Shown here: one piece after another, positions 3,103 through 34,956 of the stretch | How positions within the stretch are numbered: position 1 is the first letter of the stretch | Layout of the letters: every line of letters starts with the position of its first letter | DNA from: Burkholderiales bacterium | GTDB taxonomy: Bacteria; Pseudomonadota; Gammaproteobacteria; Burkholderiales; SG8-39 | Direction of reading: 5' to 3' | Assembly: GCA_023383795.1 (NCBI GenBank) | Contig: JAHDYJ010000031.1 | Location: forward strand, 1-39,860 | Length of the DNA: 39,860 nt | Made by a program: the position numbers and the translations under genes | Notes under the pieces: model-generated | Databases searched by the model: none | What the model saw: the letters and a program-made list of their open reading frames with translations, nothing else | What the model was told of the DNA's origin: nothing

Positions 3103-4155
3103 GTGGCGATCGAGACCGACCGGCTGATCTCCCCGCAGCCCGCGAGCGCGCACGAGGAGGCGCTCGAGCGCGCGCTCAGGCCGCGCTCGCTCGACGAGTA
3201 CGTCGGCCAGAGCCGCATCCGCGGCCAGCTCGAGATCTTCATCGAGGCCGCGCGCAACCGCAAGGAGGCGCTCGACCACGTGCTGCTGTTCGGGCCGCCC
3301 GGGCTCGGCAAGACCACGCTCGCGCACATCATCGCGCGCGAGATGGGCGTCAATCTGCGCCACACCTCCGGCCCGGTGCTCGAGCGGCCCGGCGACCTCG
3401 CGGCACTGCTCACCAACCTCGAGCCGAACGACGTGCTCTTCATCGACGAGATCCACCGGCTCTCGCCGGTCGTCGAGGAGATCCTGTACCCGGCGCTCGA
3501 GGACTACCAGATCGACATCATGATCGGCGAAGGGCCGGCGGCGCGCTCGGTGAAGCTCGACCTGCCGCCGTTCACGCTGGTCGGCGCGACGACGCGCGCC
3601 GGCATGCTGACCAATCCGCTGCGCGACCGCTTCGGCATCGTGGCGCGGCTCGAGTTCTACACGCCGGAGGAGGTGCAGCGCATCGTCACGCGGTCGGCCC
3701 GGCTGCTCGAGGTCGAGATCTCCGACGAGGGCTCGCTCGAGATCGCGCGCCGCTCGCGCGGCACGCCGCGGGTGGCGAACCGGCTGCTGCGGCGGGTGCG
3801 CGACTACGCGCAGGTGCGCGCCGGCGGGCGCATTTCGCGCGAGGTGGCCGACGCCGCGCTCGGCATGCTGGAGGTCGACCAGCTCGGGCTGGACGTGATG
3901 GACCGCAAGCTCCTGCTCGCGGTGATCGAGAAGTTCGCGGGCGGGCCGGTCGGCGTCGAGAACCTCGCGCACGCGATCGGCGAGGAGCGCGACACCATCG
4001 AGGACGTGCTCGAGCCCTTCCTGATCCAGCAGGGCTACCTGCAGCGCACCCCGCGCGGGCGCGTCGCGACCGTCGCCGCGTACCGACACTTCGGCCTGGC
4101 CGCCCCGGTCCGCGAGCAGACCTCCGATCTCTGGCAGGGCGACGAGCAAGGTTGA
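3103..4155 (+). CDS. ruvB: Holliday junction branch migration ATPase RuvB
   Basis: An AAA+ ATPase that drives branch migration with RuvA. Walker [13 protein letters not shown], Walker [11 protein letters not shown], sensor 1 LVGATTRAG, the arginine segment RDRFG and the C-terminal winged helix ending [12 protein letters not shown] are all present in 350 residues, the normal length. The start is GTG at 3103, 15 bases after ruvA; no in-frame ATG lies nearby upstream. It is the last gene of ruvCAB; a G+C-rich stem directly follows the stop. Confidence 0.97.
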
Positions 4156-4187
4156 GGGGTCGGGCCGCGGCGGCATTCCCTGACCCC
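4156..4187 (+). terminator. G+C-rich hairpin immediately after ruvB
   Basis: GGGGTCGGG at 4156-4164 pairs with CCTGACCCC at 4179-4187 (nine pairs, one G-U), beginning at the first base after the ruvB stop. No T-run follows, so it may be a weak terminator or an mRNA 3'-end stabiliser. The rest of the 4188-4423 spacer shows no convincing gene. Confidence 0.4.
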
Positions 4188-4423
4188 GAGGCGGGCCGAG
4201 CGGCGTTCATACCGCTCCGAACCCCACCGCGCCCCGCGTCCGCCATGATGTGCCCGGGCCCCGCCCGGACTCCGGCCTCCGCCTCGGTCATCCTGTCCCG
4301 GGCGCCGGCCGCCGCGCGTCGAGCAGACCCTGCGTGCAGAGCGCCCGAAATGGCGCGACAATCGCGCGTTCGCCGGCGCCGGCGCGCCGGGACGGATGCG
4401 AAGAACGACAGCAGGATAGAAGG

Positions 4424-4849
4424 TTGGCGCAACGACAGCGACCCGCGCGCGTCCAGACATGGCCTGTCCGGGTCTACTACCACCACACCGACGCCGGTGG
4501 GGTGGTCTATCACGGCACCTATCTCGACTTCTTCGAGGCCGCGCGCATCGAGCTCCTGCGCGCGCTCGGCTTCGACCTCGCCGAGCTCGCGGAGCGGCGC
4601 GCGGCGATCTTCATCGTCTACGGCCTGCAGGTGAGCTACCGCAAGCCGGCGCGGCTGAATGACGCGCTCGAGGTGACCGCCGAGATCGCGCGGCTCGGGC
4701 GCGTGCGCGTCGAGTTCGCCCAGCACGTGCGGCGCGCCGGGGAGACGATCGTCTCGGCGCGGGTCGAGGCGGCATGCGTGCACCCGCGCACGTTCCGGCC
4801 GGTGCCGCTGCCCGAGGAGTTGAGAGAGGGACTGGAGTCCATCGCATGA
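4424..4849 (+). CDS. ybgC: YbgC-type acyl-CoA thioesterase of the Tol-Pal operon
   Basis: A hotdog-fold thioesterase (4-hydroxybenzoyl-CoA thioesterase family) that opens most proteobacterial tol-pal operons; it hydrolyses short acyl-CoA or acyl-ACP thioesters. The family signature with the catalytic Asp is visible in VYYHHTDAGGVVYHG, followed by YLDFFEAARIELLR. The reading frame is open back to an ATG at 4250, but homology begins only around TWPVRVYYHHTD. TTG at 4424, preceded by AGGA, gives 141 residues, close to the usual 130-140, so I chose it. The stop overlaps the tolQ start (ATGA at 4846-4849). Confidence 0.9.
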   Translation: MAQRQRPARVQTWPVRVYYHHTDAGGVVYHGTYLDFFEAARIELLRALGFDLAELAERRAAIFIVYGLQVSYRKPARLNDALEVTAEIARLGRVRVEFAQHVRRAGETIVSARVEAACVHPRTFRPVPLPEELREGLESIA

Positions 4850-5526
4850 ACGTCACGCACGACATCTCCATCCTCTCGCTGATCGCTAACGCGAGCTTCG
4901 TCGTGCAGGCGATCATGGCGCTGCTGCTGGCCGTCTCGGTCATGTCCTGGTTCTACATCTTCCGCAAGCTGTTCGCGGTGCGGCAGGCGCAACGCGAGAC
5001 CGAGGATTTCGAGCGCGCGTTCTGGAGCCGCCCGGACCTGAACGCGCTCTACCAGAGCGCGGTGAACGCGCGCCATCGCACCGGCAGCCTCGAGCGGATC
5101 TTCGAGGCCGGGTTCCGCGACTACGTCAAGCTGAAGGGCCAGCGCATCGCCGACCCGACCGAGCTCGTCGACGGCGCGCGGCGCGCGATGCGCGCGACCT
5201 ACCAGCGCGAGATGGACTACCTCGAGTCGCACCTCGCCTTCCTGGCGTCCGTCGGCTCGGTCAGCCCGTACGTGGGTCTGCTCGGCACGGTGTGGGGGAT
5301 CATGCAGTCGTTCCGCGGCCTCGCGAACGTCGCCCAGGCGACGCTCGCCGCGGTCGCTCCGGGAATCGCCGAGGCACTGGTCGCCACGGCGATGGGCCTG
5401 TTCGCCGCGATCCCGGCGGTGGTGGCGTACAACCGCTACTCGCACGACATCGATCGCTTGGCGAACCGCTTCGAGAGCTTCATGGAGGAGTTCTCGAACA
5501 TCCTGCAGCGCCAGGCGACGCGGTGA
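4846..5526 (+). CDS. tolQ: Tol-Pal system proton-channel subunit TolQ
   Basis: An inner-membrane protein of the MotA/TolQ/ExbB family. With TolR it forms the proton-driven motor that energises TolA for outer-membrane constriction at division. Starting at ATG 4846 (MNVTHDISILSLIANAS) it has 226 residues, the usual length. Three membrane segments are seen: VVQAIMALLLAVSVMSWFYI near the N-terminus and two in the C-terminal half (from VSPYVGLLGTVWGIMQSF and from AEALVATAMGLFAAIPAVVA). The open frame extends upstream to 4774, but that part overlaps ybgC and is not TolQ-like. Confidence 0.97.
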   Translation: MNVTHDISILSLIANASFVVQAIMALLLAVSVMSWFYIFRKLFAVRQAQRETEDFERAFWSRPDLNALYQSAVNARHRTGSLERIFEAGFRDYVKLKGQRIADPTELVDGARRAMRATYQREMDYLESHLAFLASVGSVSPYVGLLGTVWGIMQSFRGLANVAQATLAAVAPGIAEALVATAMGLFAAIPAVVAYNRYSHDIDRLANRFESFMEEFSNILQRQATR

Positions 5527-5530
5527 CCGC

Positions 5531-5950
5531 ATGCGACAGCGCAAGCTCGTGAACCAGATCAACATCGTCCCGTACGTGGACGTGATGCTGGTGCTGCTCG
5601 TCATCTTCATGGTGACCGCCCCGCTGGTGAACCCGGGCCTGGTCGAGCTGCCGAGCGTCGCGAAGTCCGCGCCGCTGCCGCAGCGGGTCGCGCCGCTCGA
5701 GGTGCTGATCCGGCGCGACGGCGCCATGCTGCTGCGCGAGCGCGCGCCCGGGGCGCGCGAGGACCGGCCGGTCACGATGCCGGAGCTGCTCGCGATCGTG
5801 AAGGAGCGCCAGGCCGCCGATCCCGACCAGCCGGTCGTGATCTCGGCCGACAAGGATGTCAGGTACGAGGAGGTCATGAGAGTCATGGACGGGCTGCAGA
5901 AGCTCGACGTCCGCCGGGTCGGGCTGATGGTCAGGCCCGCGGAGCAGTAG
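5531..5950 (+). CDS. tolR: Tol-Pal system protein TolR
   Basis: An ExbD/TolR-family inner-membrane protein, 139 residues: a short cytoplasmic N-terminus, one membrane helix (YVDVMLVLLVIFMVTAPLV) bearing the conserved proton-carrying Asp (the D of YVDVML), and a periplasmic domain. It lies four bases after tolQ and seven before tolA, consistent with one transcript. The C-terminal segment ADKDVRYEEVMRVMDGLQK is typical of TolR/ExbD. Confidence 0.96.
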   Translation: MRQRKLVNQINIVPYVDVMLVLLVIFMVTAPLVNPGLVELPSVAKSAPLPQRVAPLEVLIRRDGAMLLRERAPGAREDRPVTMPELLAIVKERQAADPDQPVVISADKDVRYEEVMRVMDGLQKLDVRRVGLMVRPAEQ

Positions 5951-5956
5951 GGGCAG

Positions 5957-6835
5957 ATGCGCCCGCAGACCCGCACCGAGCCGCGCAGCACGGTCTCGTT
6001 CGCGCTCGCGCTGGGCGTGCACGCGCTGCTGATCGCCGTGCTCTTCTTCGCGATCAGCTGGAAGACGCGGCCGCCGGCGCCGGTGGTCGCCGAGCTGTGG
6101 ACGCCGCCGCCGCCGCCGAAGGCCGCGCCGCGGCCCGAGCCGCCCAAGCCGGCGCCGGTGCCCGAGCCGAAGGTCGAGCCGAAGGTCGAGCCGAAGCCGC
6201 CGCCGAAAGTCGACATCGCGCTCGAGCGCGAGAAGGAGATCAGGCGGCTCGAGGAGCTCGAGCGCAAGCGCCGCGAGGACGAGCGCAAGCGAAAGGAGCT
6301 CGAGCAGAAGCAGCTCGAGGAGAAGAAGCGCAAGGAGGAGGAGGCGGCGCGGCGCCTGGAGGCCGAGAGGAAGCGCAAGGAGGAGGAGGCGCGCGCGAAG
6401 GCCGAGCGCGAGAAGCAGCGCATCGCCGAGGAGGAGCGGCTGAAGCGGGAGCTCGACGAACTGCGGCAGCGCCGCACGAATGAGCAGCTCGCGCGTGATC
6501 TCGCGAGCGCGCCGGCGGCCGCGCGCAGCGGCGTGCCGGTGCCCGGCGACCCGGGCGCGACGAACGAGTATCGCGCGCGGATCGCCGCCAAGATCAGGGG
6601 CAACGTCGTGCTGCCGCCGGAGTTCGCCGGCAACCCGGAAGCGGAGTTCGAGGTGCAGCAGCTGCCGAGCGGCGACATCGTGAGCGTCAAGCTCGCGCGG
6701 TCGAGCGGCAACAGGCAGCTAGACGCCGCCTGGGAGCGCGCGATCCTGAAGAGCTCGCCGCTGCCGCTGCCGACGAACCGCGACGTCTTCCAGGCGACGC
6801 TGCGGCTGAGATTCCGGCCGGTCGAGGAACGATGA
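5957..6835 (+). CDS. tolA: Cell envelope integrity protein TolA
   Basis: Spans inner membrane to periplasm and transmits TolQR force to Pal/TolB. The 292 residues show the TolA layout: an N-terminal anchor (SFALALGVHALLIAVLFFAI), a Pro-rich stretch (PPPPPKAAPRPEPPKPAP), a long Lys/Glu/Arg-rich helical domain (about residues 85-185, e.g. EEKKRKEEEAARRLEAERKR), and a C-terminal TolA/TonB-like domain starting around NEYRARIAAKIRGNVVLPP and ending LRLRFRPVEER. It sits between tolR and tolB in the usual order. The low-complexity centre generates spurious ORFs in other frames. Confidence 0.95.
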   Translation: MRPQTRTEPRSTVSFALALGVHALLIAVLFFAISWKTRPPAPVVAELWTPPPPPKAAPRPEPPKPAPVPEPKVEPKVEPKPPPKVDIALEREKEIRRLEELERKRREDERKRKELEQKQLEEKKRKEEEAARRLEAERKRKEEEARAKAEREKQRIAEEERLKRELDELRQRRTNEQLARDLASAPAAARSGVPVPGDPGATNEYRARIAAKIRGNVVLPPEFAGNPEAEFEVQQLPSGDIVSVKLARSSGNRQLDAAWERAILKSSPLPLPTNRDVFQATLRLRFRPVEER

Positions 6836-12024: not shown

Positions 12025-12331
12025 AGGACAAGCCGTACCCGCGCCGCACCAGCACCCAGCGGCCGTCGGCCGTCCTCCGGTACTGCCGCTCGTCGAGCAG
12101 CCCGATGTACTGGATGCGCCAGTCGCGCTGCGGATTGCCGCGGGCGAGCGCCTCCGCGTCGGCCACGCTCATCGCGCGCTCGAACTCGAACGGCTCGGCC
12201 TCGTACACCGCCTCGCCGTCGCGCATGAGCGCCGCGTAGCCCACCCCCACGCTAATCAGGGCCTGCGGATCGAGCGCCTCCTCCGCGCGCGTTCCGGCGG
12301 CCTGCGTTGGGGTCTTGTCGTGCGCGACCAT
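12023..12331 (-). CDS. Small hypothetical protein (102 aa)
   Basis: Unrecognised protein of 102 residues. The start is well supported: GAGGAG (complement of 12338-12343) lies six bases before the ATG. The N-terminus is polar; the C-terminal half reads as a compact soluble domain rich in aromatic and basic residues (DWRIQYIGLLDERQYRR, GRWVLVRRGYGLS). No membrane segment, signal peptide or Cys cluster. It is transcribed away from the SLOG-like gene at 12637. Confidence 0.65.
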   Translation of the reverse strand: MVAHDKTPTQAAGTRAEEALDPQALISVGVGYAALMRDGEAVYEAEPFEFERAMSVADAEALARGNPQRDWRIQYIGLLDERQYRRTADGRWVLVRRGYGLS

Positions 12332-12636
12332 GGAAGTCTCCTCGAAAGTTCAGCCGGGACTCGCATCGGAACGCGGACCGGGGCTGCCGACGCCGCTCCG
12401 GGATTCTCCCGCCGCTCGGTTACCGGAAGTGTGGTGCGTATGACCGGCGCCGCGGCAACGCGGTTCCCGCGCTCCCGCGCTGCTTTGCAGCACTCGCGCG
12501 CGGGCCCCGTGCCGCCCGCATGAAGGTGCCCGGCCGGCGCCATGCCATCGTAATATGCGGCACCGCGGTGCCCGACACGCTTATGATGCGCGGGCGCGAC
12601 CCGCCGAGGCGGCGGCGCGAGAACGCGAGGACGGGG
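12332..12636. promoter_or_regulatory. Divergent intergenic region with a 14-bp palindrome
   Basis: A spacer of 305 bases between divergent genes. GGCACCGCGGTGCC at 12559-12572 is a perfect palindrome placed where a -35 box would be for TATGAT at 12582-12587, which lies about 50 bases before the ATG of the following gene. This is a candidate operator, by inference. No gene is evident. Confidence 0.4.
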
Positions 12637-13263
12637 ATGACCCAGCTGCTGCTCGATCGGACCAATCGCCGGCTGTGCGACGCCACCCGGGGCGAGTTCG
12701 ATCCGCGGTCGCGGGCGTGGCGCGAGGGGACGGTGCGCGGCGAGCGCATCACGCTGCGCGAGGCGGTGCGCTGGCTGCAGCGCGAGAGCGGCACGCCATG
12801 CCGGGCGCCGGTCGCCGTCGCCGGCGCGCGGGACGCGCCGTCCGCGGCGCTGATCTTCGCGGAGCGGCTGGGGCGCGGCCTCGCCGAGATGGGCCTCACT
12901 ATCGTCTGCGGCGGACTCTCCGGCGTCATGGGCGCGGCCGCGAAGGGCGCGGCGGAGGCCGGCGGCGTGGTCGTGGGACTGCTGCCGCAGGGCGATTGGC
13001 GCGATGCCAATCCCTACGTCACGGTGCCGATCGCCACCGGGATCGGCGAGGCGCGCAACGCGATCATCGCGCGGGCCGGCCTCTGCCTGGTCGCCGTGGG
13101 CGGCGGCTTCGGCACCCTTGCGGAGATCGCCCTGGCGCGCCAGTTCGGCGTGCCGGTGTTCGGTTGGCTCGAGGCTTCGCCGGTGTCCGGCGTGCGCACG
13201 GTCGGCGAGCCGGAAGAAGCGCTCGAGCACGTGGCGAGCGTGGTGCTCGCGCTGGCGCAGTAG
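12637..13263 (+). CDS. SLOG/LOG-superfamily protein (TIGR00725-like)
   Basis: A Rossmann-like nucleotide-binding protein related to the LOG/lysine-decarboxylase-like SLOG superfamily. The diagnostic glycine-rich motifs are present: IVCGGLSGVMGAAAKGA, then a second nucleotide-loop VAVGGGFGTLAEIALA. About 60 N-terminal residues precede the core domain, which begins at APVAVAGARDAP. LOG enzymes are cytokinin-nucleoside phosphoribohydrolases, but this branch lacks the clear PGGxGTxxE form (here GGGFGTLAE), so catalysis is uncertain. The start at ATG 12637 follows GAGGACGGGG; the frame is open to 12307 but unlike protein upstream. Length 208 residues. Confidence 0.8.
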   Translation: MTQLLLDRTNRRLCDATRGEFDPRSRAWREGTVRGERITLREAVRWLQRESGTPCRAPVAVAGARDAPSAALIFAERLGRGLAEMGLTIVCGGLSGVMGAAAKGAAEAGGVVVGLLPQGDWRDANPYVTVPIATGIGEARNAIIARAGLCLVAVGGGFGTLAEIALARQFGVPVFGWLEASPVSGVRTVGEPEEALEHVASVVLALAQ

Positions 13264-13340: not shown

Positions 13341-13357
13341 TTGGCATATACTTTGCG
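13341..13357 (+). promoter_or_regulatory. Candidate sigma54 (-24/-12) promoter of the kinase operon
   Basis: TTGGCATATACTTTGCG at 13341-13357 matches the sigma54 pattern TTGGCA-N6-TTGC, with the essential GG (13343-13344) and GC (13355-13356) exactly ten bases apart. Transcription would start near 13368, 26 bases before the GTG start at 13394. TATACT (13347-13352) inside it could alternatively be a sigma70 -10 box, but no -35 is suitably placed. Confidence 0.55.
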
Positions 13358-13393
13358 AACAAAAACAGCTGATTAGACGAGAAGGCCTGCACC

Positions 13394-15352
13394 GTGTTCC
13401 GACTCTGGCCGAGCGCCGCGTCCACCGAAGCCGCCACGTCCGTGGCACACCCGGTAGACGCGTCCGCGCGCGGCACGGGCGGGCTCGCCGCGCAGGTCGG
13501 GCGGCCTTTCCGCTACCTCGCGGTGGCGACGCTGGCCGTGGTCGTCGTCGGCGGATGGCTCTATCTCTACTTTCAGGCGCGCTCGGTGGATCTCGGCGCC
13601 GCGAACGAGGTGCTCGGCGCGCTGCGCGACCTCAAGGAGATCGATCAGCGCTGGAACGACCGCCTGATCGGCGCGCGACTCGCGCCCCAGGCGCTGACCG
13701 ATGCCGAGCTCGAGCCGATGCGCGCCGCTTCCAACCTGCCGACGGTGGGGCGGTTGCAGGCGCAGCTCGCGCAGCGCTCGTTCGACATGGGCGGCCTGCT
13801 CGGCGCGCAGGGTCTCGCCGCCCTGCGCGCCGCGTTCGATGCCAAGGCGCGGGCGGTCGACGAGTTCCTCGGCGCCAACCGCGCCTACCGCGCGTCGCTC
13901 GCGCGGTTCGTCGAGTCGGGCGACGCGCTCGCCGCCGCGATCCGGGAGCGCGCGGCGACCAAGGCACCGGTCCCGGCGACGGTCGAGCGCGCGCTCGAGC
14001 GCGTCACCGCGGCGACGCTCGCGTACGCCGCCCAGCCGGGCGCCACGGTCGCGGGTGCGGCCGAGGGCGCGATCGCGCAGCTCGCGCCGCCTGACGCGGG
14101 CGACCCGCTGAGTGGATCGATCGCCGCCTTCGCCGATGCCGCGCGCCGGACGATCGCCGACCGCCGGGCCGAGAGCGCGCTGTTCGGCGACGCGCTGCTC
14201 GCGTCGACCGGGCCGCGCCTCGAGTCGCTGACCAAGGCGTTCGAGACCGAGTTCGGGAACGCCATCGTCGAGGCCGAGCGCTACCGGCTCTACCTGCTGG
14301 TCTACTCCGGCCTGCTGCTCGTCCTGGCCGCCTATCTCGGCTGGCGTCTCGCCCACAGCTACGCGGTCATCAACCGGATCAACCTGCAGCTGCGCGAGGC
14401 AAACGAGGGCCTCGAGCGGCGCGTCGCGGAGCGCACGCGCGAGCTCTCCGACGCGCTCACGCAGCTGAAGGAGCAGGAGGCGCTGCTGATCCAGAGCGAG
14501 AAGATGTCGTCGCTCGGCCAGATGGTGGCCGGCGTCGCGCACGAGGTGAACACGCCGCTCGCCTACGTCAAGGCGAGCCTCGACACCGTGAGCGGCCGCA
14601 TGCCGCTGCTCGCCGAGCTCGCCGCGGGCGCCGAGCGGCTGCTCGAGCTGCTGCGCTCCGATTCGAGCTCGGAGGCCGAGCTGTCGGCGCAGTTCGCCCG
14701 CGTGTCGGGGCTGATCGAGGAGGCGAACCGGCGCGGCACGCTCGACGAGCTGCGCACGCTCGTGAAGGACGGCCTGCACGGCATCGGCCAGATCGCGGAG
14801 CTGGTGACGAACCTGAAGGATTTCGCGCGGCTCGACCGCAGCAAGGTGGCAGAATTCGACCTGAACGAAGGCGTGCAGAGCGCGCTGAATATCGCCCGCA
14901 ACCAGCTGAAGCAGAAGACCGTGAGAACGATGTTCGGGGCGCTCCCGAAGATCAGCTGCTCGCCCTCGCAGATCAACCAGGTCTTCCTGAACCTGATCAC
15001 CAACGCGGCGCAGGCGACGCCCGCCCAGGGCGGCGTGATCACGCTGCGCACGGCGCTGTACGGCGACCGCGACGTGATGGTCGAGGTGAGCGACAACGGC
15101 CACGGCATCCCGGCGGACGTGCTGCCGCGGATCTTCGATCCGTTCTTCACCACCAAGGAGGTCGGCAAGGGCACCGGGCTCGGCCTGTCGATCTCCTACA
15201 AGATCGTCGAGAGCCACGGCGGGCGCATCGAGGTCGATTCGAAGCCCGGAGTCGGCACGCGCTTCCGCGTGATCCTGCCGAAGGCGCCCGTCGCCCGGGA
15301 GACGGTCGCGCCCGCGCCCGGCCGCATGCCCGCCGCCACCGCCGCGCGATGA
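13394..15352 (+). CDS. Membrane sensor histidine kinase
   Basis: A 652-residue transmembrane histidine kinase starting at GTG 13394 (AGAAGG upstream). Layout: membrane helix 1 around residues 40-60 (YLAVATLAVVVVGGWLYLYF); a mostly helical periplasmic sensor of about 235 residues, possibly a DAHL-type domain; membrane helix 2 around 297-319; a coiled coil; a dimerisation/phosphoacceptor helix with His383 in VAHEVNTPLAYVKA. The catalytic domain follows with N box LITNAAQATP, G1 VSDNGHGIP, F box FDPFFTTKE and G2 GKGTGLGLS. All catalytic boxes look intact. Its stop overlaps the next start by four bases (ATGA, 15349-15352), coupling it to the Ser/Thr kinase-receiver protein, its likely phosphotransfer partner. 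The signal is unknown. Confidence 0.93.
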   Translation: MFRLWPSAASTEAATSVAHPVDASARGTGGLAAQVGRPFRYLAVATLAVVVVGGWLYLYFQARSVDLGAANEVLGALRDLKEIDQRWNDRLIGARLAPQALTDAELEPMRAASNLPTVGRLQAQLAQRSFDMGGLLGAQGLAALRAAFDAKARAVDEFLGANRAYRASLARFVESGDALAAAIRERAATKAPVPATVERALERVTAATLAYAAQPGATVAGAAEGAIAQLAPPDAGDPLSGSIAAFADAARRTIADRRAESALFGDALLASTGPRLESLTKAFETEFGNAIVEAERYRLYLLVYSGLLLVLAAYLGWRLAHSYAVINRINLQLREANEGLERRVAERTRELSDALTQLKEQEALLIQSEKMSSLGQMVAGVAHEVNTPLAYVKASLDTVSGRMPLLAELAAGAERLLELLRSDSSSEAELSAQFARVSGLIEEANRRGTLDELRTLVKDGLHGIGQIAELVTNLKDFARLDRSKVAEFDLNEGVQSALNIARNQLKQKTVRTMFGALPKISCSPSQINQVFLNLITNAAQATPAQGGVITLRTALYGDRDVMVEVSDNGHGIPADVLPRIFDPFFTTKEVGKGTGLGLSISYKIVESHGGRIEVDSKPGVGTRFRVILPKAPVARETVAPAPGRMPAATAAR

Positions 15353-17307
15353 GCACGCTCGCCAGGATCGGCAAGTACGAGCTCGTGGGCGAGCTCGGCA
15401 AGGGCGCCATGGGCGTCGTCTACAGGGGCTACGACCCGGTGATCCAGCGGTACGTGGCCCTGAAGGTGATCCGCAAGGCCGACCTCGACCCGGCCGACGG
15501 CGCCGCGGTGCTGGAGCGCTTCAAGCGCGAGGCCCAGGCGGTCGGCAAGCTGCACCATCCGAACATCGTCGCCATCTACGAGTACGGCGAGGACGACGAG
15601 TGCGCGTTCATCGCGATGGAGCTGGTGAACGGGCGCGCGCTGCGCGAGCACATCCGCTCCGGCTACCGGCCGGAACTGAAGGAGTTCCCCGAGATCCTGA
15701 TCCACCTGCTGGAGGGGCTCGAGTACTCGCACATGCAGGGCGTCGTCCATCGCGACATCAAGCCGGCGAACCTGCTGATCAGCGACATGGGCGTGGCCAA
15801 GATCAGCGATTTCGGCATCGCGCGGCTCGAGACCTCGCACCTCACGAAGATGGGCGAGGTGCTCGGGACGCCGTTCTACATGGCGCCCGAGCAGTTCAGC
15901 GGCGTCGCGGACGAGCGCAGCGACATCTACTCCGCGGCGGTCATCGTCTACGAGGTGCTGACCGGGCGCCGGCCGTTCGACGGCCAGGGCGCGCCGCTGA
16001 TGAAGAAGATCCTCGAGGACATGCCGCCGCCGCCTTCCAGCCTGGAGCCGCGGCTGCCGCGCGAGATCGACGCGGTCCTGATGCGCGCGCTCGCGAAGGA
16101 GCCGGCGCAGCGCTATCGCAATGCGCGGCAGTTCGCCGCGGCGCTGCTGCAGGCGTTCGAGAACCGCGGGCGCATCTCGCAACCGCTGCCGCTTGGGCAA
16201 GGCGGCGAGGACACCAATCCGTCCGACGACGGCGTCGCCGACGGCGGCACGATCTCCGGCAAGGCGGCCGCGCTGCGGCGCGCGCTCGGCGGGCGGCTCG
16301 ACGCACAGGGCAGCGCCGCGGGCGGCGAGAAGGCCGGCGAGGGCGCCGCCGCGGGGTCCGCCGCCGCGCCGCCGATCGTCCCGATCCGGCGTCCGGCGCT
16401 GCTCTTCGTCGACGACGAGGAGCGCGTGGTGAACGCGCTGCGCGCGCTCTTCAAGGACAACTACCGGGTCGTCACCGCGACGAGCGGCGAGCAGGCGCTC
16501 GGCATGGTGCGCCGAGAGCGGTTCCACGTGGTAGTGAGCGACCAGCGCATGCCCGGCATGCTCGGCGTCGACCTGCTCCGCGAGGTCAAGGCGCTCGCGC
16601 CGAACACGGTGCGCATGCTGCTCACCGGCTACTCCGACCTCGCGGCGATCGTCGGCTCGGTGAACGACGGCGAGGTGTACCGCTTCATCCACAAGCCGTG
16701 GAACCAGGACGACCTGATGTCCACGGTGGGCGAGGCCGTGACGATCGCGATCGCGCTCGAAGCGAGCCCGCCGCCGCGCGCCACCGCGAAGGGGGACGAC
16801 GACCTGACACTGGTGGTGCTCGACGATCCCGCGCTCGCGCGCGCCACGCGCGAGATGGTCGGCGATCTCGCCCGCGTCGAGCATGCGGCCAACATCGAGG
16901 ACGCGCTGCGCATCTTCGCCGAGCGGGAGGTGGCGGTGCTGATCGCGGACCTCGAGTCGCGGCGCGTGGACAACACGGTGCTCTTCAAGGTGCTTAAGCG
17001 CGAGCATCCCGGGACGCTGGTGGTCGTGGCGACCAAGGCTTCGGACTCGGAGCTGATCATCAGCCTGATCAACGAGGCGCGCATCTTCCGCTTCGTCAAC
17101 AAGCCGGTCAACCTCACGCTGCTGCAGAGCCACATCGTGGCGGCGCTGGAGCGCTACCACAGCTTCAAGCAGGCGCCGGCGCTGATGCGTACGCAGCGGC
17201 CGAAGAAGCCGGCCGTGGCCGAGTCCGAGGACACGACGCTCGTCCGCTCGATCACCGAGACGTTGCGTTCGATCGGCAGCCGCTTCGCTGCGGCGTTCAA
17301 GAGCTGA
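15349..17307 (+). CDS. Ser/Thr protein kinase with two C-terminal receiver domains
   Basis: A 652-residue cytosolic fusion. Kinase domain (about residues 8-270): glycine loop ELGKGAMGVVYRG, Lys39 in YVALKVI, HRD at 134-136 in VVHRDIKPANLL, DFG at 154-156, MAPEQFSG; all catalytic residues are intact. A Gly/Ala-rich linker (about 275-345) leads to receiver 1 with acidic pocket D355/D356, phosphoacceptor D398 (VVSDQRMPG) and Lys449 (FIHKPWN). Receiver 2 has D492/D493, D534 (LIADLES) and Lys585 (FVNKPVN). Both receivers keep the full set of key residues. The C-terminal tail ends in a helical segment. There is no membrane helix and no DNA-binding domain. Translation is coupled to the histidine kinase, so His-Asp phosphotransfer probably controls Ser/Thr phosphorylation; that is inference. 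Confidence 0.95.
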   Translation: MSTLARIGKYELVGELGKGAMGVVYRGYDPVIQRYVALKVIRKADLDPADGAAVLERFKREAQAVGKLHHPNIVAIYEYGEDDECAFIAMELVNGRALREHIRSGYRPELKEFPEILIHLLEGLEYSHMQGVVHRDIKPANLLISDMGVAKISDFGIARLETSHLTKMGEVLGTPFYMAPEQFSGVADERSDIYSAAVIVYEVLTGRRPFDGQGAPLMKKILEDMPPPPSSLEPRLPREIDAVLMRALAKEPAQRYRNARQFAAALLQAFENRGRISQPLPLGQGGEDTNPSDDGVADGGTISGKAAALRRALGGRLDAQGSAAGGEKAGEGAAAGSAAAPPIVPIRRPALLFVDDEERVVNALRALFKDNYRVVTATSGEQALGMVRRERFHVVVSDQRMPGMLGVDLLREVKALAPNTVRMLLTGYSDLAAIVGSVNDGEVYRFIHKPWNQDDLMSTVGEAVTIAIALEASPPPRATAKGDDDLTLVVLDDPALARATREMVGDLARVEHAANIEDALRIFAEREVAVLIADLESRRVDNTVLFKVLKREHPGTLVVVATKASDSELIISLINEARIFRFVNKPVNLTLLQSHIVAALERYHSFKQAPALMRTQRPKKPAVAESEDTTLVRSITETLRSIGSRFAAAFKS

Positions 17308-24855: not shown

Positions 24856-24902
24856 AAACTTAAACAGTTTGGGTGCCTAACGTTTCGGCTTCCGGGTACA
24901 AT
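24856..24902 (+). promoter_or_regulatory. Promoter/operator region of the aryl-acid ligase gene
   Basis: TACAAT at 24897-24902 is a good -10 box 75 bases before the ATG at 24978. Upstream lies an AT-rich inverted repeat, AAACT-TAAAC-AGTTT (24856-24870), which stands out in this G+C-rich sequence and may be an operator for a TetR/MarR-type repressor. No good -35 is seen. Confidence 0.45.
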
Positions 24903-24977
24903 GCGCCGGAGCAAGCGCGGCGCGCGCGCGGAAACGGGAGTCGATTCCGCCGCGCCGGCGCCGTGAGTGGGGAGGGC

Positions 24978-26609
24978 ATGGCGATCCGCATCGAATATCC
25001 GCCCGAGCTCGCCGCGCGCTATCGCGCCGCCGGCTGGTGGACCGACGAGTTGCTCGGCGACTGGCTCGAGCGGGCGGCGCGCGCGGCGCCCGACCGGACC
25101 GCGGTGCGGCAGGGCACGGTCTCGCTCGGCTACGCGGAGCTGCGCCGCCGCGCTCACGCGTTCGCGCGCGGGCTCGCGCGGCTCGGCGTTGCCAAGGGCG
25201 ACGTCGTCGCGGTGCAGCTGCCCAACCTGGTCGAGTTCGTGGTGGCCTACCTCGGCATCAGCGCGCGCGGCGCGGTCATGCAGACGGTGCACATGCCCTA
25301 CCGCGAAGCCGAGCTCGAAACGCTGCTGCGGCACAGCGGCGCCGTCGCGATCGTGTGCGTCGCCCGGGCGAAGGAGTACGTGGCCGCCGCGCTCGCGCTC
25401 GAGCTGCGCAAGCGGCTGCCGCGCCTCGCGCACGTCATCGCCGTCGGCGACGCGCCGGCCGGCGCGGTGGCGTTCGACGCGCTGGCCGACGCCGCCCTCG
25501 GCGAAGGCGCGCCGGCGGTGGCGGTGGCGGCGAGCGATCCGTTCGTGCTGCTCTACACCTCCGGGACGACCGCGGCGCCGAAGGGCGTGCCGCACCCCTA
25601 CCAGACCTACCTGTCGAACTTCCGGCTCGCCGCGCGCGAGCTCGGCATCGCGCCACACGACGTCGTGCTGTGCGCGGCGCCCTTCACGCACCTCTACGGC
25701 CTCTCCGCGTTGAGCGTGGCGCTCTGCGCGGGAGCCACGGCGGTGCTCCTGCCGGCGTACACGCCGCAGGAGTTCGCGGAGCTGATCGTGCGCGAACGGC
25801 CGAGCGTCGTCTATGCCGGTCCGGCGCACATCGCCAGCTGTCTCGGCAGCGGGCTGCTCGACGGCAAGGACTGCTCCTCGGTGCGGCTGGTCGTCCTGTC
25901 GGGCGCGGCGGTTCCGGCCGAGCTCGCGCAGGGGCTCGAGGCGAGGCTCGGCGGCGGCAAGGTGCTGCAGCTCTGGGGCATGACCGAGCTGCAGGCCGGG
26001 GCCTATGGGCGGCCGGGCGACGCGCCCGGCGATCGCATCGGCTCGGCCGGACGGGCCGCGCCCGGCAACGAGCTTCGCGTGGTGCGCGACGACGGCGCGC
26101 CCGCCGCCGCCGGCGAGGTCGGCGAGCTGGAGATGCGCGGCGCCTCGCTTTTCGCCGGGTACCTCGACAATCCCGAGGCGACCGCAGCGGCGTTCAGCGC
26201 CGACGGCTGGTTCCGCACCGGCGACCTGGCCGCGATCGACGCGGCCGGAAACCTGCACCTCGCCGGGCGGACCAAGGAGGTGATCAATCGCGGCGGCGTG
26301 AAGTTCAACCCGCTCGACGTCGAGAACCTGATCGTCGCCCATCCCGCGGTCGAGATGTGCGCGATCGTGCCGATGCCCGACCCGGTGCTCGGCGAGCGCG
26401 CCTGCTGCTTCGTCACGCTGCGGACCGGCGCGCGGTTCGGGTTCGACGAGATGCGGCAGTGGCTCGCCGCGCACGGCATCGGCAAGGTGCGCTGGCCGGA
26501 GCGGCTGGAGGTGATCGAGGCGATGCCGATGACGCCGACGCGCAAAGTCATCAAGGGCGCGCTGGTGAAGGAGCTCGTGCGCCGGATGCAGGACACGCAA
26601 CAGCAGTAA
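24978..26609 (+). CDS. AMP-dependent aryl-acid ligase (EntE/2,3-dihydroxybenzoate-AMP ligase-like)
   Basis: An ANL-superfamily adenylating enzyme of 543 residues. Phosphate loop LLYTSGTTAAPKGVPH, A5 motif LQLWGMTELQAG, A7 WFRTGDLAAIDAAG, hinge GRTKEVINRGGVKFNP, and the A10 Lys in MTPTRKVIKGAL. The N-terminus (YPPELAARYRAAGWWTDELL) resembles EntE-type aryl-acid ligases, so salicylate, anthranilate or another benzoate is a likely substrate, consistent with the downstream hydroxylase. ATG 24978 follows GGGGAGGG. The last 20 codons lie inside a 147-bp tandem repeat and the present stop (DTQQQ*) comes from that repeat; the ancestral C-terminus probably continued as RRMQDLRRQ into the next start codon. 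Confidence 0.9.
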   Translation: MAIRIEYPPELAARYRAAGWWTDELLGDWLERAARAAPDRTAVRQGTVSLGYAELRRRAHAFARGLARLGVAKGDVVAVQLPNLVEFVVAYLGISARGAVMQTVHMPYREAELETLLRHSGAVAIVCVARAKEYVAAALALELRKRLPRLAHVIAVGDAPAGAVAFDALADAALGEGAPAVAVAASDPFVLLYTSGTTAAPKGVPHPYQTYLSNFRLAARELGIAPHDVVLCAAPFTHLYGLSALSVALCAGATAVLLPAYTPQEFAELIVRERPSVVYAGPAHIASCLGSGLLDGKDCSSVRLVVLSGAAVPAELAQGLEARLGGGKVLQLWGMTELQAGAYGRPGDAPGDRIGSAGRAAPGNELRVVRDDGAPAAAGEVGELEMRGASLFAGYLDNPEATAAAFSADGWFRTGDLAAIDAAGNLHLAGRTKEVINRGGVKFNPLDVENLIVAHPAVEMCAIVPMPDPVLGERACCFVTLRTGARFGFDEMRQWLAAHGIGKVRWPERLEVIEAMPMTPTRKVIKGALVKELVRRMQDTQQQ

Positions 26610-26887
26610 GGTGGCGCGGGCGACGCACCGAGCGCCTGGCTTTGCCCCCTCCCCCTCGAGGGGGAGGGCGGGGAGGGGGTGGAGCGTGAAATCCCCATCA
26701 AGGGCGCGCTGGTGAAGGAGCTCGTGCGCCGGATGCAGGACACGCAACAGCAGTAAGGTGGCGCGGGCGACGCACCGAGCGCCTGGCTTTGCCCCCTCCC
26801 CCTCGAGGGGGAGGGCGGGGAGGGGGTGGAGCGTGAAATCCCCATCAAGGGCGCGCTGGTGAAGGAGCTCGCGCGCCGGATGCAGGA
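26550..26887 (+). repeat. 147-bp exact tandem duplication over the 3' end of the ligase gene
   Basis: Copy 1 (26550-26696) and copy 2 (26697-26843) look identical by eye; a third, partial copy (26844-26887, 44 bases, one mismatch) follows. Each unit holds the last 60 bases of the ligase gene including TAA, then a non-coding segment with a 22-bp perfect palindrome (26647-26668 and 26794-26815: CCCTCCCCCTC plus its reverse complement), the common G+C-rich REP-like type. The unit is 49 codons long. Confidence 0.95.
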
Positions 26888-26938
26888 TTTGCGGCGGCAG
26901 TGGCGGACATCGAACGGATTGCGGCAGGAGACCCACAC

Positions 26939-29275
<2,337 letters not shown>

Positions 29276-29381
29276 AATCGGGTGGTCCGGCGGCCGCGCG
29301 GACCGCCCCGCGGCCGCCGGATGCCGCGCTCGCGATCCCTCGTTTCCCGTCGCTGTCCTCGCCCGCCACTGGTCCGCCGTC

Positions 29382-30611
29382 TTGACCGATACTGACTCCG
29401 CCGCGCGGCGCTCGCGCTGGTTCTGGCGCGCCGTCGCGCTCGCGATCGTCGCCGCCGGCGTCGGCGGCTTCGTCGCGCTGCAGGTGCTGAAGCCCCGGCC
29501 CGCGGTGCGCCAGCCCGCGAAGCAGCTGCCGCTCGTGCGCGCGGCGCCGGTCGAGTTCCGCGAGGGCGCGCTCGCGGTCAGCGGCAACGGGCTGGTGGCG
29601 CCGCGCATCGAGGTCGTGCTCGCCGCGGAGGTCGCGGGGCGCGTGGAGTTCGTCAGCCGCTCGCTCGTGACCGGCGGTGCGTTCGCGCGCGACGAGGTGC
29701 TGCTGCGCCTGGATCCCGAGCCGTTCCGCGCCGCGCTCGAGCAGGCCGAGGCCGACCGGCGCTCGGCCGAAGCCAGCCTGCGGCTCGCCGAGCGGCTGCT
29801 CGAGCGCACCGAGGACCTGATCGCGCAAGGCTTTCTGTCGCGCCAGACGCTCGACGAGCGGGTCGCGAACCGCGACCAGGCGCGCGCGGCGCTCGCCCGT
29901 GCCGAGGCGCTCGAGCGGCAGCGGCGCATCGACCTCGAGCGCTCGGTCATCCGGGCGCCGTTCCGCGGCAAGGTACTGTCGGAGGCGGTCGCGGCGGGCG
30001 AGACGGTGCAGCCGGGCAAGGAGCTCGCTCGGCTCTTCGCCGACGACGCGCTCGAGATCGCGGTCTCCCTCACCGACCGCGACGTGGCGCTGATCGCCGA
30101 TCCGTGGCGCCGCGGCGGGGAGCGCGGGGGCGCGAAGGCGACGGTGACCGTCGAGCACGGTGGCGGCGTGTACAGCTGGCCGGCGCGGGTCGATCGCGTC
30201 GAGGCCGCGGTGGACAGCGCGACGCGCACGTTCAACGTCGTGGTGCGGGTCGACGACCCGTCGGCGCGCGGCAAACCGGTGGCGGGAGCCGCCGCCGCCG
30301 CGCCGCCGCTGCTCGTCGGCATGTACACGACGGTCGAGATCGCCGGACGCGACCAGGGTCGCTACGCGGTCATTCCGCGGCGCGCGCTGCGCGACGGCGG
30401 CGTGATCTGGCTGCTCGGCGAGCGCGACGCGGTATCGATCCGGCCGGTGCGGGTGCTGCGCGAGGGCAAGGACACCGTCGCGATCGCGGGCGACGGGCTG
30501 CCCGACGGCGCACGCGTCGTCGCGAGCGACCTCAAGGTCGTGACCGAGGGCATGGCCGTGCGGGTGGTGGGCGACGGCGCCGGGCGCCCGCCGGAGCGCA
30601 CCGCGCCATGA
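29382..30611 (+). CDS. RND efflux periplasmic adaptor (membrane fusion protein)
   Basis: An HlyD/AcrA-type adaptor of 409 residues. An N-terminal membrane anchor (FWRAVALAIVAAGVGGFVAL) is followed by a biotinyl-lipoyl half-motif (EVVLAAEVAGRVEFVSRSLV), an alpha hairpin (ALEQAEADRRSAEASLRLAE... RDQARAALARAEALERQRR), the second lipoyl half (IRAPFRGKVLSEAVAAGETV), a beta barrel and a C-terminal domain. It docks the permease to an outer-membrane channel, which is not encoded nearby. I chose TTG 29382; the frame is open to 29115 but upstream residues are Arg/Ser-rich and overlap the hydroxylase gene. It overlaps the permease by four bases (ATGA, 30608-30611). Confidence 0.9.
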   Translation: MTDTDSAARRSRWFWRAVALAIVAAGVGGFVALQVLKPRPAVRQPAKQLPLVRAAPVEFREGALAVSGNGLVAPRIEVVLAAEVAGRVEFVSRSLVTGGAFARDEVLLRLDPEPFRAALEQAEADRRSAEASLRLAERLLERTEDLIAQGFLSRQTLDERVANRDQARAALARAEALERQRRIDLERSVIRAPFRGKVLSEAVAAGETVQPGKELARLFADDALEIAVSLTDRDVALIADPWRRGGERGGAKATVTVEHGGGVYSWPARVDRVEAAVDSATRTFNVVVRVDDPSARGKPVAGAAAAAPPLLVGMYTTVEIAGRDQGRYAVIPRRALRDGGVIWLLGERDAVSIRPVRVLREGKDTVAIAGDGLPDGARVVASDLKVVTEGMAVRVVGDGAGRPPERTAP

Positions 30612-33600
30612 GCGGACTCATCGCCTGGATGGCGCGCCACCCGGTGGCCGCCAACCTGCTCGCGCTGTTCATCGTGATTGCCGGCCTCACCAGCGCGCTC
30701 ACCATGCGCCAGGAGGTCTTCCCGCAGGTCGAGCTCGACATCATCGAGGTGCGCGTCGTCTACCAGGGCGCCGCGCCCGACGAGGTGGAGGAGGCGATCG
30801 TCCAGCGCATCGAGGACCAGATCGAGGGCATCGAGGGCATCGACCGGCTCACGTCGATCGCCGCCGAGGGCGTCGGCATCGTGCGCGCCGAGCTCGCGCG
30901 CGGCGTGCGCGTCGCCGGCAAGCTCGACGAGATCAAGGCGGCGGTGGACCGCATCACGACCTTCCCGGACGAGGCCGAGCGGCCCGAAGTGAAGGAGCTC
31001 ACCACCCGCCAACGGGTGATCGAGCTCGTGGTCTACGGAGACGCCGGCGAGGCCACCGTGCGCGAGCTCGCGTACCGCGTCAAGGACGAGCTCTCGGGCA
31101 CGCCCGGAATCTCGCTCGTGCAGGTGGCGAAGGTGCGCGAGTACGAGGTGTCGATCGAGGTGCCGAACGACGCGCTGCGCGCCTACGGGCTCACGCTGCA
31201 GGACGTCGCCGAGACGGTCCGGCGCTCGAGCCTCGACCTGCCCGGCGGCGACATCAAGGCGCAGGGCGAGTCGATCCTGCTGCGCGCCAAGGGCCGCAAC
31301 TACGACCGCGCCGATTTCGCCTCGATCGTGGTCGTGTCGGCCCGCACCGGCGCCAGGGTCCGGCTCGCCGACATCGCGCGCATCGACGACGGCTTCCGCG
31401 ACGAGGATCTCATCGTGCGCTACCAGGGCAAGCCGGCCGCGTTCGTGCAGGTGTTCCGCGTCGGCGAGGAGAAGGTGCTCGACATCGTCGGCCTGGCCCA
31501 TCGCTACCTGGACGAGAGCCTGCGGCCCGGCCTGCCGCCGGGCCTCGAGGTCGCGGTCTGGCGCGACGACTCGGCCGAGTTCAGGAGCCGCATGCGGCTG
31601 CTGCTGAAGAACGGCCTGATCGGGCTCGCGCTCGTGCTCGGCGCGCTCACGCTGTTCCTCGACCTGCGGCTCGCGTTCTGGGTGTCGGCCGGGATCTTCG
31701 TCGCCTTCGTCGGCGCCTTCAGCGTGATGCCGCTCCTCGGCCTGTCGATCAACATGACCTCGCTGTTCGGCTTCATCCTGGCGATCGGCATCGTCGTCGA
31801 CGACGCCATCGTGACCGGCGAGAACATCTACGCCGAGAACGAGCGCGGCGCGCCGCCGGTCGAGGCGGCGGTCGCCGGCGCGCAGCGCGTGGCGCTGCCG
31901 GTCGCGCTCGCCGTGTCGACCACGATCGCGGCGTTCATACCGCTGCTCTTCGTGCCCGGCACGGTCGGCAAGTTCCTCTACCAGATTCCCGCCGTCGTCA
32001 TCCTCGTGCTCGCGGTCTCGGTGATCGAGGCGATGCTCGTGCTGCCGCACCATCTCGCGCACCTGCATATCCGGGGACACGCGCCGCGCACGCGCGTCGG
32101 GGCGCGGCTCGCGCGCCTGCGCCACGCGGTCGACCGGCAGCTGCGCCGGTTCGTCGACGGGCCGCTCGACCGCGTCCTGCGCTTCGCCACCGCACACTAC
32201 GGCGTGGTGATCGCGGGCGGCGTCTCGGTCCTGATCCTGACGCTCGGCGTCCTGAGCGGCGGCTACGTGCGGTTCAGCTTCTTTCCGCAGGTGGAGGGGC
32301 GCTACGTGACGGCCTCGCTCGAGCTCGCGCCGGGCGCTACGGCCGAGGCGACCTTCGAGGCGGCGCTCGAGATCGAGCGCGCCGGCCGCGAGGCGGCGCG
32401 CGCGCTCCCGGATCCGAGCGGCGAGCCGCTGGTGAACGCGGTCCATCTCACCGTCGGGACGCAGGATCGCGCCGGCCCGGGCGCCGCCGGCGCGCTGAAC
32501 GTGCTCCAGGGCAACAAGGCCTCGGTGGTCTTCGAGCTGCTCGACCCAGAGGTGCGCACGGTGTCCGCGCGCGAGTTCGAGACCCGCTGGCGCACGGCGG
32601 TCGGCGCGCTGCCCCAGGTGCAGAAGCTCTCGTACGCGTCTAACGTGATCAACCTCGGCTCGCCGGTGCAGATCGAGCTCTCCGCGCGCACCCAGGAGGC
32701 GCTCGCGCAGGCGGTGCAGGCGCTCGAGGAGGAGCTCGCGCGCATCGAGGGCGTCTACGACGTGCGCAACGACCGCGAGCCGGGCAAGCGCGAGGTGCAG
32801 TTCGCGCTCAAGCCGAACGCGCGGGCGCTCGGGCTCACGCTGGAGAACCTCGCGCAGCAGGTGCGCGCGGCCTTCTTCGGCGCCGAGGCGCTGCGCGTGC
32901 AGCGCGGGCGCGACGAGGTGCGGGTCTACGTGCGGCTGCCGCGCGGCGAGCGCAACTCGCTCGCGGACCTCGCGCGCTACCGGATCCGCACGCCCGCCGG
33001 CGACTTCGTGCCGCTGCACGAGGTCGCGGAGCTCTCGCTCGGCCACGGCCCGGCGACGATCGTGCGCCAGCGCGGGCGCCGGGTCACCACCGTGCTGGCC
33101 GAAGTCGACGGCGCGGTCGTCACCGGCCAGCAGGTGAACGCGCGGCTCGTCTCGGAGGTCATCCCGCGGCTGCAGGAGGAGATCCCGGGGCTCACCTACG
33201 CGATGGCGGGCGAGCAGCGCGAGCAGGGCCAGACGCTGCCCGCCCTCGCGGGCAACTTCGTGCTCTCGGTATTCGCGATGTACGCGCTGCTCGCGCTCGC
33301 GTTCCGCTCGTACGTGCAGCCGGTGATCGTGCTCGCCGCGATTCCGTTCGGCCTCGTCGGCGCGACCGTCGGGCACCTGCTGCTCGGGCTGAGCATCGGG
33401 CTGGTCAGCCTGTTCGGCATCGTCGGCCTCGCCGGCATCATCGTGAACGGCGCGCTGGTGCTGGTCGACTTCGTGAACGAGGAGCGCGGCCGCGGCAAGA
33501 GCGCCGAGCAGGCGATCGTCGACGCCGCCAAGAGCCGTTTCCGCCCGATCCTGCTCACGGCGGTGACCACCTTCCTCGGCATCTTCCCGCTGATCGTCGA

Positions 33601-33775: not shown

Positions 33776-34268
33776 GCCCGCGCGCGTCGCGCACGGCGCT
33801 GCGCGCGATGACGGCGCGCAGCATGTCCTTCAGCGCGCGCGCGTTGCGCGCCCCGAACGCGCGCAGGATCTCGGCTTCGTGCGCCTTGGCCCGACGCAGC
33901 AGGCCGTCGACGACGCGGCGCCCGTGCGCGGTCTCGAAGACCAGCGTGCGGCGCAGATCCGCGCCGTCGTCGGCACGGCGCACGAGCCCGCTCCTCACTA
34001 GGCGCTGGACGAGCCGCGTCAGCGTCGGCTGCTTGGCGAGCACGCGCGCGGCGAGCTCGCCGATCGTCAGGCCGTCGCCGTCGGACAGCGTGGCGAGCAC
34101 GCGCCACTCGAGCGGCGAGAGCCCCGCCGCGCGCACCTGCGCGTCGAACTCCCTGTAGACCGCGTGGCTCGCCTGCGCGAGCAGGTACGAGAGGTAGTCC
34201 TCGACGAAGCCGGCGCCGGCCGCCGCCGGCCGCCGCGCCGCCGCATTCGCCGTCCCGCCATTGGCCAT
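33687..34268 (-). CDS. MarR-family transcriptional regulator
   Basis: A winged-helix repressor-type protein of 193 residues. A dimerisation helix (VEDYLSYLLAQASHAVYREF) precedes the winged helix-turn-helix (LSPLEWRVLATLSDGDGLTIGELAARVLAKQPTLTR in order, with wing VRRADDGADLRRTLVFE). The typical MarR ends near residue 150; the last 40 residues are Pro/Arg/Ala-rich and overlap the end of the permease gene by 89 bases, probably read-through without function. It is divergent from the flavin reductase operon with an AT-rich palindrome between them. MarR-type regulators (e.g. NicR) control nicotinate catabolism next to NicX genes, which fits this context. Confidence 0.9.
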   Translation of the reverse strand: MANGGTANAAARRPAAAGAGFVEDYLSYLLAQASHAVYREFDAQVRAAGLSPLEWRVLATLSDGDGLTIGELAARVLAKQPTLTRLVQRLVRSGLVRRADDGADLRRTLVFETAHGRRVVDGLLRRAKAHEAEILRAFGARNARALKDMLRAVIARSAVRDARGLSAPARPRRGARARASAGRGPRPPSRAPA

Positions 34269-34307
34269 GTCCGTCTCCCCCCGCCGGCCGCCGCGCCGCC
34301 CGTTGCG

Positions 34308-34331
34308 TTACATGAAGAATCATATAATATG
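34308..34331. promoter_or_regulatory. AT-rich operator/promoter between MarR gene and flavin reductase operon
   Basis: CATATAATATG (34321-34331) is a perfect 11-bp inverted repeat containing TATAAT (34323-34328); just upstream ATGA-AGAA-TCAT (34312-34323) is a second small inverted repeat. This AT-rich island is in a very G+C-rich intergenic region and is the likely MarR binding site overlapping the operon promoter. Confidence 0.6.
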
Positions 34332-34949: not shown

Positions 34950-34956
34950 GCGGTCG

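Follow-up and report, generated by a model that had tools for sequence, protein, structure and literature searches.

A membrane histidine kinase encoded beside a Hanks-type Ser/Thr kinase with two C-terminal receiver domains: a conserved gene pair in Burkholderiales

Introduction

Two-component signalling and Hanks-kinase signalling in bacteria have mostly been studied apart, as routes joined by cross-talk. PknB-like kinases are activated by dimerisation and by autophosphorylation of the activation loop, and PleD, with the domain order REC-REC-GGDEF, is activated through dimerisation of its receiver (REC) domains. The Frz system uses a CheA-type kinase. REC-PP2C response regulators of the PA3346 type go by the name HsbR.

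In PA3346, a receiver phosphorylated by a histidine kinase (HK) governs a Ser/Thr phosphorylation state via a phosphatase, according to the accessible text of a review (PMC12189002). The available part of a study of Campylobacterota describes a REC-PP2C-STYK protein, with receiver and Ser/Thr kinase in one chain, for which HK control was proposed (PMC9239204). Fungal Rim15 is presented in a further partial source as a protein kinase with a C-terminal receiver, whose phospho-Asp is replaced in Ascomycota (PMC8510515). Excerpts of a two-component survey of Azospirillum mention a tandem REC of the FrzZ-like type and an HK that contains a Ser/Thr kinase domain (PMC4618731), and the accessible text of a survey of over 600 bacterial STYKs describes no receiver fusion and does not contain the word 'receiver' (PMC1262709).

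Here we analysed a stretch of 39,860 nucleotides (the window) from a Burkholderiales bacterium (assembly GCA_023383795.1, contig JAHDYJ010000031.1), in which a membrane HK gene is followed by the gene of a Ser/Thr kinase with two C-terminal receivers (kinase-REC-REC). As in PleD, tandem receivers are predicted to govern one enzymatic output, but here the output is a Ser/Thr kinase placed N-terminal to the RECs, REC2 keeps its Asp, and there is no GGDEF domain, so that the protein is not of the PleD type. Compared with HsbR/PA3346, phosphate would be added here and is removed there, and the window protein carries no PP2C domain and falls outside the RsbU/HsbR type. The Campylobacterota protein, as far as its partial description goes, has an N-terminal REC, a PP2C domain and no assigned HK, in contrast to the two C-terminal RECs and the fixed neighbouring HK found here. 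Rim15, compared by its partial description only, shares the order of kinase and C-terminal REC but is a eukaryotic kinase.

FrzZ-like proteins consist of two RECs without output, an architecture matched (again by partial description) by kinase-less relatives of about 315 aa, whereas the window protein has a kinase. These relatives have an adjoining HK gene of their own, as opposed to the CheA-type kinase of Frz. The closest kinase domains, by sequence and by fold, are those of the PknB/StkP PASTA kinases. Our full-text literature search, with most subscription papers outside its reach, listed none that describes a Ser/Thr kinase bearing two RECs and linked to an HK. Fusions of receivers with Ser/Thr kinases are already in print, and an HK-linked kinase with two C-terminal RECs is a new arrangement of that kind.

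Results

Domains and residues of the two proteins

The first-pass annotation of this DNA had begun the pair at 13341; this was wrong, since that position lies off the HK frame by 53 nt, in which no start codon precedes the GTG at 13394 (Table 1). Its description of the genes and domains is otherwise upheld. ORF coordinates bear out the ATGA overlap of the two genes, and the domain search that it proposed recovers Pkinase, two Response_reg stretches and HATPase_c. The Hanks-type kinase residues (K39, HRD at 134-136, DFG at 154-156) are intact and both receivers are complete (D355/D356, D398, T426 and K449 in REC1; D492/D493, D534, T562 and K585 in REC2), with the numbering correct throughout. 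The kinase-REC-REC protein contains no DNA-binding, cyclase or PP2C output by Pfam at E<=1, as had been claimed.

Table 1 Features of the gene pair, in window coordinates
Feature	Position	Strand	Basis
Membrane histidine kinase (HK) gene	13394..15352	+	ORF, GTG start, 652 aa
DAHL domain (aa 67-298)	13592..14287	+	Pfam PF19443, 9.5e-21
ATGA overlap, HK stop / kinase-REC-REC start	15349..15352	+	ORF reading
Kinase-REC-REC gene	15349..17307	+	ORF, ATG start, 652 aa
Ser/Thr kinase domain (aa 10-257)	15376..16119	+	Pfam Pkinase 3e-49; PDB sequence and fold matches
Linker (aa 276-346), Ala/Gly rich	16174..16386	+	Low model confidence, relaxed selection
REC1 (aa 352-460), phospho-acceptor Asp398 by motif	16402..16728	+	Best Pfam Response_reg stretch
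REC2 (aa 484-612), phospho-acceptor Asp534 by motif	16798..17184	+	Two Response_reg stretches; bounds from models
C-terminal tail (aa 613-652), predicted helix 629-651	17185..17304	+	Models; similar tail in kinase-less relatives

The first protein has the features of a HisKA-type sensor kinase with a DAHL domain. DAHL (PF19443), HisKA (374-420) and HATPase_c with its N and G boxes (524-631) each score above the Pfam cut-off, and the predicted phospho-acceptor is His383, within HisKA. Hydropathy shows two hydrophobic segments, TM1 at about aa 38-62 and TM2 at about 297-320, on either side of DAHL, suggesting that this domain is periplasmic. DAHL was detected in 18 of the 28 HKs scanned, the window's HK among them, and H383, N533, N537, D567, G569, G593, G595 and G597 are invariant in the 28 aligned sequences.

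The second protein is predicted from its sequence to be an active Hanks-type kinase, with a Pkinase fold, the VAIK Lys K39, the HRD Asp D136 and the DFG Asp D154; each of its RECs has the acidic pair, phospho-Asp, Thr/Ser and Lys of a response regulator. The nearest solved relatives of the kinase domain are PknB and PknA (36-39% identity in the top PDB rows). It is not a PASTA kinase (NF033483): the match reaches 292 bits against a cut-off of 450 bits and covers aa 8-273 only. A hydropathy scan of the protein finds no hydrophobic segment, and Pfam gives no PASTA and no GGDEF match.

AlphaFold2 models the kinase and both RECs of the full protein well (mean pLDDT 81.6) but does not position the kinase relative to the RECs (pTM 0.49); the linker has pLDDT below 50 at 276-344 and is modelled as disordered. 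Modelled alone, the tandem REC is confident (pTM 0.85). Its best solved matches across both RECs are PleD chains, which fill the top ten rows, with a loose superposition (TMq 0.44-0.50).

Selection and conservation of catalytic residues

Measured against three same-genus genomes, dN/dS is 0.065-0.135 in the kinase, REC1 and REC2, 0.41-0.68 in the linker and 0.32-0.66 in the tail. The three domains are under purifying selection, and linker and tail are weakly constrained. The tail was considered as a membrane- or DNA-binding element: its C-terminal helix is basic in fusions and kinase-less relatives alike, but its amphipathicity is near that of shuffled tails (mean z 0.7-0.75). Because of this and of its poor constraint, we claim no function for it.

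We examined residue conservation in two alignments. One, of 136 rows (120 search proteins, 15 locus proteins and the window protein, which is present three times), leans towards close relatives. Of the kinase residues, K39 is kept in 135 rows, the Asp of HRD in 134 and DFG in 135. The five REC1 residues are complete in 136/136, and REC2 has Asp534 in 136, Lys585 in 135, D492 in 115 and D493 in 124. The other consists of 82 locus proteins, counting the window twice and including one fusion cut by its contig start (L104). Here 81 rows retain K39, 79 retain D136 and 80 retain D154; the HRD Arg is kept in 69 (Gln in 10, Gly in 2), position 163 is Ser/Thr in 79 and position 166 is Thr in 69. The REC1 quintet is invariant (82/82); in REC2, Asp534 is kept in 82, Lys585 in 75 (Arg in 7), D492 in 66 and D493 in 28.

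Two fusions carry pseudokinases, L024 (HGN/DLA) and L149 of genome G329 (HGA/GFG), and both REC Asp are intact in each. Kinase activity therefore cannot be the sole output of the family. The linker of the L024 protein (3599-5983) spans about 250 aa and is rich in Ala and Pro.

These pseudokinases favour an alternative in which the tandem RECs signal by protein contacts and the kinase domain is constitutive or a scaffold, ungated by phosphorylation, as does the wide spread of pairs of HK and tandem REC that lack a kinase (HK beside 55/61, see below). The near-complete retention of K39, D136 and D154 in the 82 rows and the purifying selection on the domain argue against it, and we regard it as unlikely.

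Spread and linkage of the pair

The best 120 of 7133 matches in a protein search (sources jgi, ena, lgn and ncbi) have 53-90% identity to the window protein, its own entry aside, and the matches listed include full-length homologues at 80-90% identity. These homologues, together with the low dN/dS in the kinase, REC1 and REC2, exclude chance or decay as the origin of the pair, confirming that it is real and conserved. Among the best 80 rows of a scan with one genome per species, at least 12 records carry the full-length protein (L009-L020), eleven of them Burkholderiales or Betaproteobacteria and one another bacterium; the same rows include the pseudokinase version L024 and a contig-cut protein, L021. 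The pair is present in the complete genome of Betaproteobacteria bacterium GR16-43 (L020). Spread by plasmids was considered and set aside, as no plasmid record covers 80% of the kinase-REC-REC protein.

Matches at 1e-100 occur in 18 of 61 relatives (own genome included); one of these, lying where a contig starts, matches by its RECs alone. With scoring limited to the three top candidates of each genome, 55 of the 399 genomes of the order matched at 1e-105; 54 of these matches reach the receivers and one (G409) is by the kinase part only. The first-pass annotation had taken two intact RECs on one Ser/Thr kinase to be rarer still than the generally uncommon fusions; locally, the arrangement is not rare.

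An HK of the same type lies directly upstream of the fusion gene in 80 of the 80 cases in which upstream DNA could be read (32 + 48, from two collections that share some genomes; the window is one of the 80). In the first collection, which has 33 presumed fusions, the HK precedes 32, the exception being L104, which stands at a contig end with no kinase visible; L104 and L021 are presumed fusions cut by the contig start and stand outside the linkage count. In the second it precedes 48/48, with -3 to +146 nt between the HK end and the start of the kinase domain. At 90% redundancy 55 fusion pairs are left. Fourteen further Ser/Thr kinases found in this genome served as a control: BLAST and profile searches of the adjoining DNA, reaching 2.7-4.2 kb upstream for 13 and 0.35 kb for the remaining one, detected no such HK, and a profile search of the 14 kinase ORFs detected no receiver. 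It had been set down beforehand that finding the two genes usually unlinked would speak against their coupling; with linkage in 80/80 the coupling stands.

Two kinase-REC-REC copies in a row are present in L017 and in seven genomes of genus g37 (G047, G094, G137, G272, G301, G330 and G358), and HK genes lie between the tandem copies. This doubling suggests duplicated circuits, either parallel or cross-talking. Separately, L047 has two stand-alone pairs of HK and tandem REC in a row.

Kinase-less relatives

In Comamonas, Rhodoferax, Solimonas, Nevskia, Chlorobi and Ignavibacteria, tandem REC proteins of about 315 aa that lack the kinase are encoded beside an HK of this kind. The HK adjoins 55 of the 61 proteins classed as stand-alone tandem RECs, a class that is impure, as it includes the contig-cut fusion L021, L082 with a single REC stretch and the truncated L084. 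Of the other six, two (L021 and L083) begin where their contigs end, one (L071) is accompanied by an HK fragment that scores below the cut, and L051, L080 and L085 showed none.

The stand-alone proteins keep the REC1 residues in 60-61/61. Their REC2 acceptor position is Asp in 31/61 (29/58 without L021, L082 and L084), Glu in 17 and Asn in 9. Their C-terminal tail is similar to that of the fusions.

As the kinase-less form is the more widely spread, we read it as the older one; the simplest reading is that a kinase was apparently added to an older pair of HK and tandem REC. In a REC tree, from which L106-L153 are excluded, all 27 of 27 non-redundant fusions fall in one group together with the contig-cut L021 and L104, but the node support is 0.29, and we do not press a single fusion origin.

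Covariation between the HK and the receivers

To compare the two receivers as partners of the HK, we computed APC-corrected mutual information between HK and REC columns and set it against partner shuffles. The HK specificity region comprised residues 370-400 and 452-475. This region and the alpha1 ranges follow the general interfaces of HKs with response regulators, but we set the regions on both proteins only once a first list of pairs had been inspected.

Across all pairs (n=76), the HK region and REC1 alpha1 contribute 17 of the top 100 column pairs (0/60 shuffles, under either scheme), compared with 1 for REC2 alpha1; with n=105 the values are 15 (0/100 shuffles) and 1. Stand-alone pairs (n=50) give 11 for REC1 alpha1 (0/100 shuffles) and 0 for REC2 alpha1. 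At 75% redundancy these become 12 and 0, and REC2 alpha3 also stands out (4 of the top 100, 0/60 shuffles).

The fusions present a different profile. With n=25, REC1 alpha1 yields 1 pair and REC2 alpha1 yields 3. At 90% redundancy (n=55), REC1 alpha1 gives 1 of the top 100 against a shuffled mean of 2.4, its strongest pair scoring below all 100 shuffles, and REC2 alpha1 gives 8, a count reached by 0/100 shuffles and by 0/60 in a run with two shuffle schemes. At 75% redundancy (n=31), REC1 alpha1 and REC2 alpha1 give 2 each; 11/60 shuffles reach the REC2 value, and 2/60 reach its 5 pairs in the top 200. The silence of REC1 alpha1 in fusions is expected and has little power as a test, because in them this helix hardly varies (mean entropy 0.97 bits, vs 1.76 in stand-alone proteins); the covariation evidence for REC1 comes from the stand-alone pairs and the combined sets. 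The REC2 signal in fusions is weak, sensitive to redundancy and not robust.

We read this covariation as pointing to REC1 as the ancestral HK target and to REC2 as a possible second target. An alternative is that both receivers are direct acceptors of the HK, REC2 having been recruited as a second target after the kinase fusion. It would account for the invariance of Asp534 in the fusions, set against its frequent loss in stand-alone relatives, and for the eight REC2 alpha1 pairs at n=55 that the shuffles do not match. However, at 75% redundancy the top-100 count falls within the reach of shuffles, though the top-200 count less so; the second acidic residue of REC2 is Asp in 28/82 rows (124/136 in the set leaning towards close relatives); and another HK may supply phosphate to REC2. 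We hold this reading as tentative and somewhat unlikely.

Neighbouring genes

No neighbour besides the HK is common to all the fusion loci compared, and an operon partner that would reveal the substrate was accordingly rejected. A rough GC3 rule served to choose 124 flank genes, of which 76 were scanned. Branched-chain amino-acid ABC genes resembling livMGF directly precede the HK in five fusion loci, with all three genes in L013, L014 and L020, one in L015 and two in L024, both of which are cut by the contig; the names were read from the sequences, with ABC_tran by Pfam for L013. This could reflect shared ancestry or a link to amino-acid uptake.

In nine stand-alone loci (L022, L023, L026, L027, L028, L030, L032, L034 and L041, from Comamonas, Diaphorobacter, Aquabacterium, Rhodocyclaceae and others) a gene resembling di-haem cytochrome c peroxidase/MauG lies directly upstream of the HK. 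The assignment is based on nine Pfam matches among the 76 flank proteins, with L023 and L027 matched individually and the rest placed by a double CxxCH. At L009-L020 and at L024, gene calling gave no gene with a double CxxCH. The peroxidase gene hints at a redox or peroxide cue for this stand-alone branch.

In the window, a gene of SLOG cluster-4 (nucleotide-sensor-like) at 12307-13263 (+) lies 131 nt upstream of the HK gene, in the same orientation, and was not seen as conserved at that place in L009/L010. Further downstream are ORFs for an AMP-binding ligase (24873-26609), a fusion of FAD_binding_3 with an NADH:flavin-oxidoreductase (26900-29275), an AcrB-type exporter (30104-33775) and an acyl-CoA dehydrogenase (36916-38199), and this region (24873-38199) may be a cluster for aromatic-acid degradation.

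Discussion

Since the two genes are neighbours in many related bacteria, the sensor HK likely controls the second kinase directly, by passing phosphate to a receiver. The explanation that we consider probable as a whole, as judged from sequence, is that the HK phosphorylates REC1 (Asp398) and thereby switches the PknB-like Ser/Thr kinase. Of the proposal that the kinase is controlled by a His-Asp relay with two acceptor sites, the coupling to the HK is thus retained on the strength of the 80/80 linkage; the use of both Asp as acceptors is so far not supported, the covariation in the kinase-less relatives being with REC1 alpha1 and not with REC2 alpha1.

In this mechanism, DAHL would sense a periplasmic cue and His383 would autophosphorylate. 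The phosphate would pass to Asp398, REC1 being proposed as the acceptor because the HK specificity helices covary with its alpha1 in the kinase-less relatives. Phosphorylation of REC1 may then alter the arrangement or the dimerisation of the tandem RECs, by analogy with PleD, and two tethered kinase domains might be brought together or freed for trans-autophosphorylation of the activation loop (Ser163/Thr166 region). We prefer gating by dimerisation, by analogy, because of the general activation modes of PknB-like kinases and PleD and because Ser/Thr 163 and Thr 166 are kept. The active kinase would phosphorylate substrates on Ser/Thr; the locus itself revealed neither a substrate nor a phosphatase. 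REC2 (Asp534) may serve as a second acceptor or as a tuning site, kept specifically in the kinase-bearing clade.

The signal might also run in reverse, with the Ser/Thr kinase phosphorylating its own RECs or the adjoining HK and so modulating an ordinary His-Asp pathway. That response regulators can be phosphorylated on Ser/Thr and that eSTKs can modulate HKs is covered in the accessible text of a review (PMC12189002), but such a scheme leaves unexplained why the RECs of the fusions keep their phosphorylation chemistry and why they are fused to this kinase, and we consider it very unlikely.

A more elaborate form of HK control is a hard-wired cascade from His to Asp to Ser/Thr, in which the membrane HK would run the tethered Hanks kinase through the tandem receiver, and REC2, kept or re-recruited after the fusion, would make this a two-site phospho-switch; this is speculative and rather doubtful. 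The family offers natural comparisons for such questions, the kinase-less relatives representing a state without output and the pseudokinase members one in which the output is dead. The Asp of REC2, often lost without the kinase and invariant with it, poses a clean question about the role of the second receiver. Under the proposed control by the HK, a His-Asp signal would be turned directly, within a single protein of this conserved pair, into phosphorylation on Ser/Thr.
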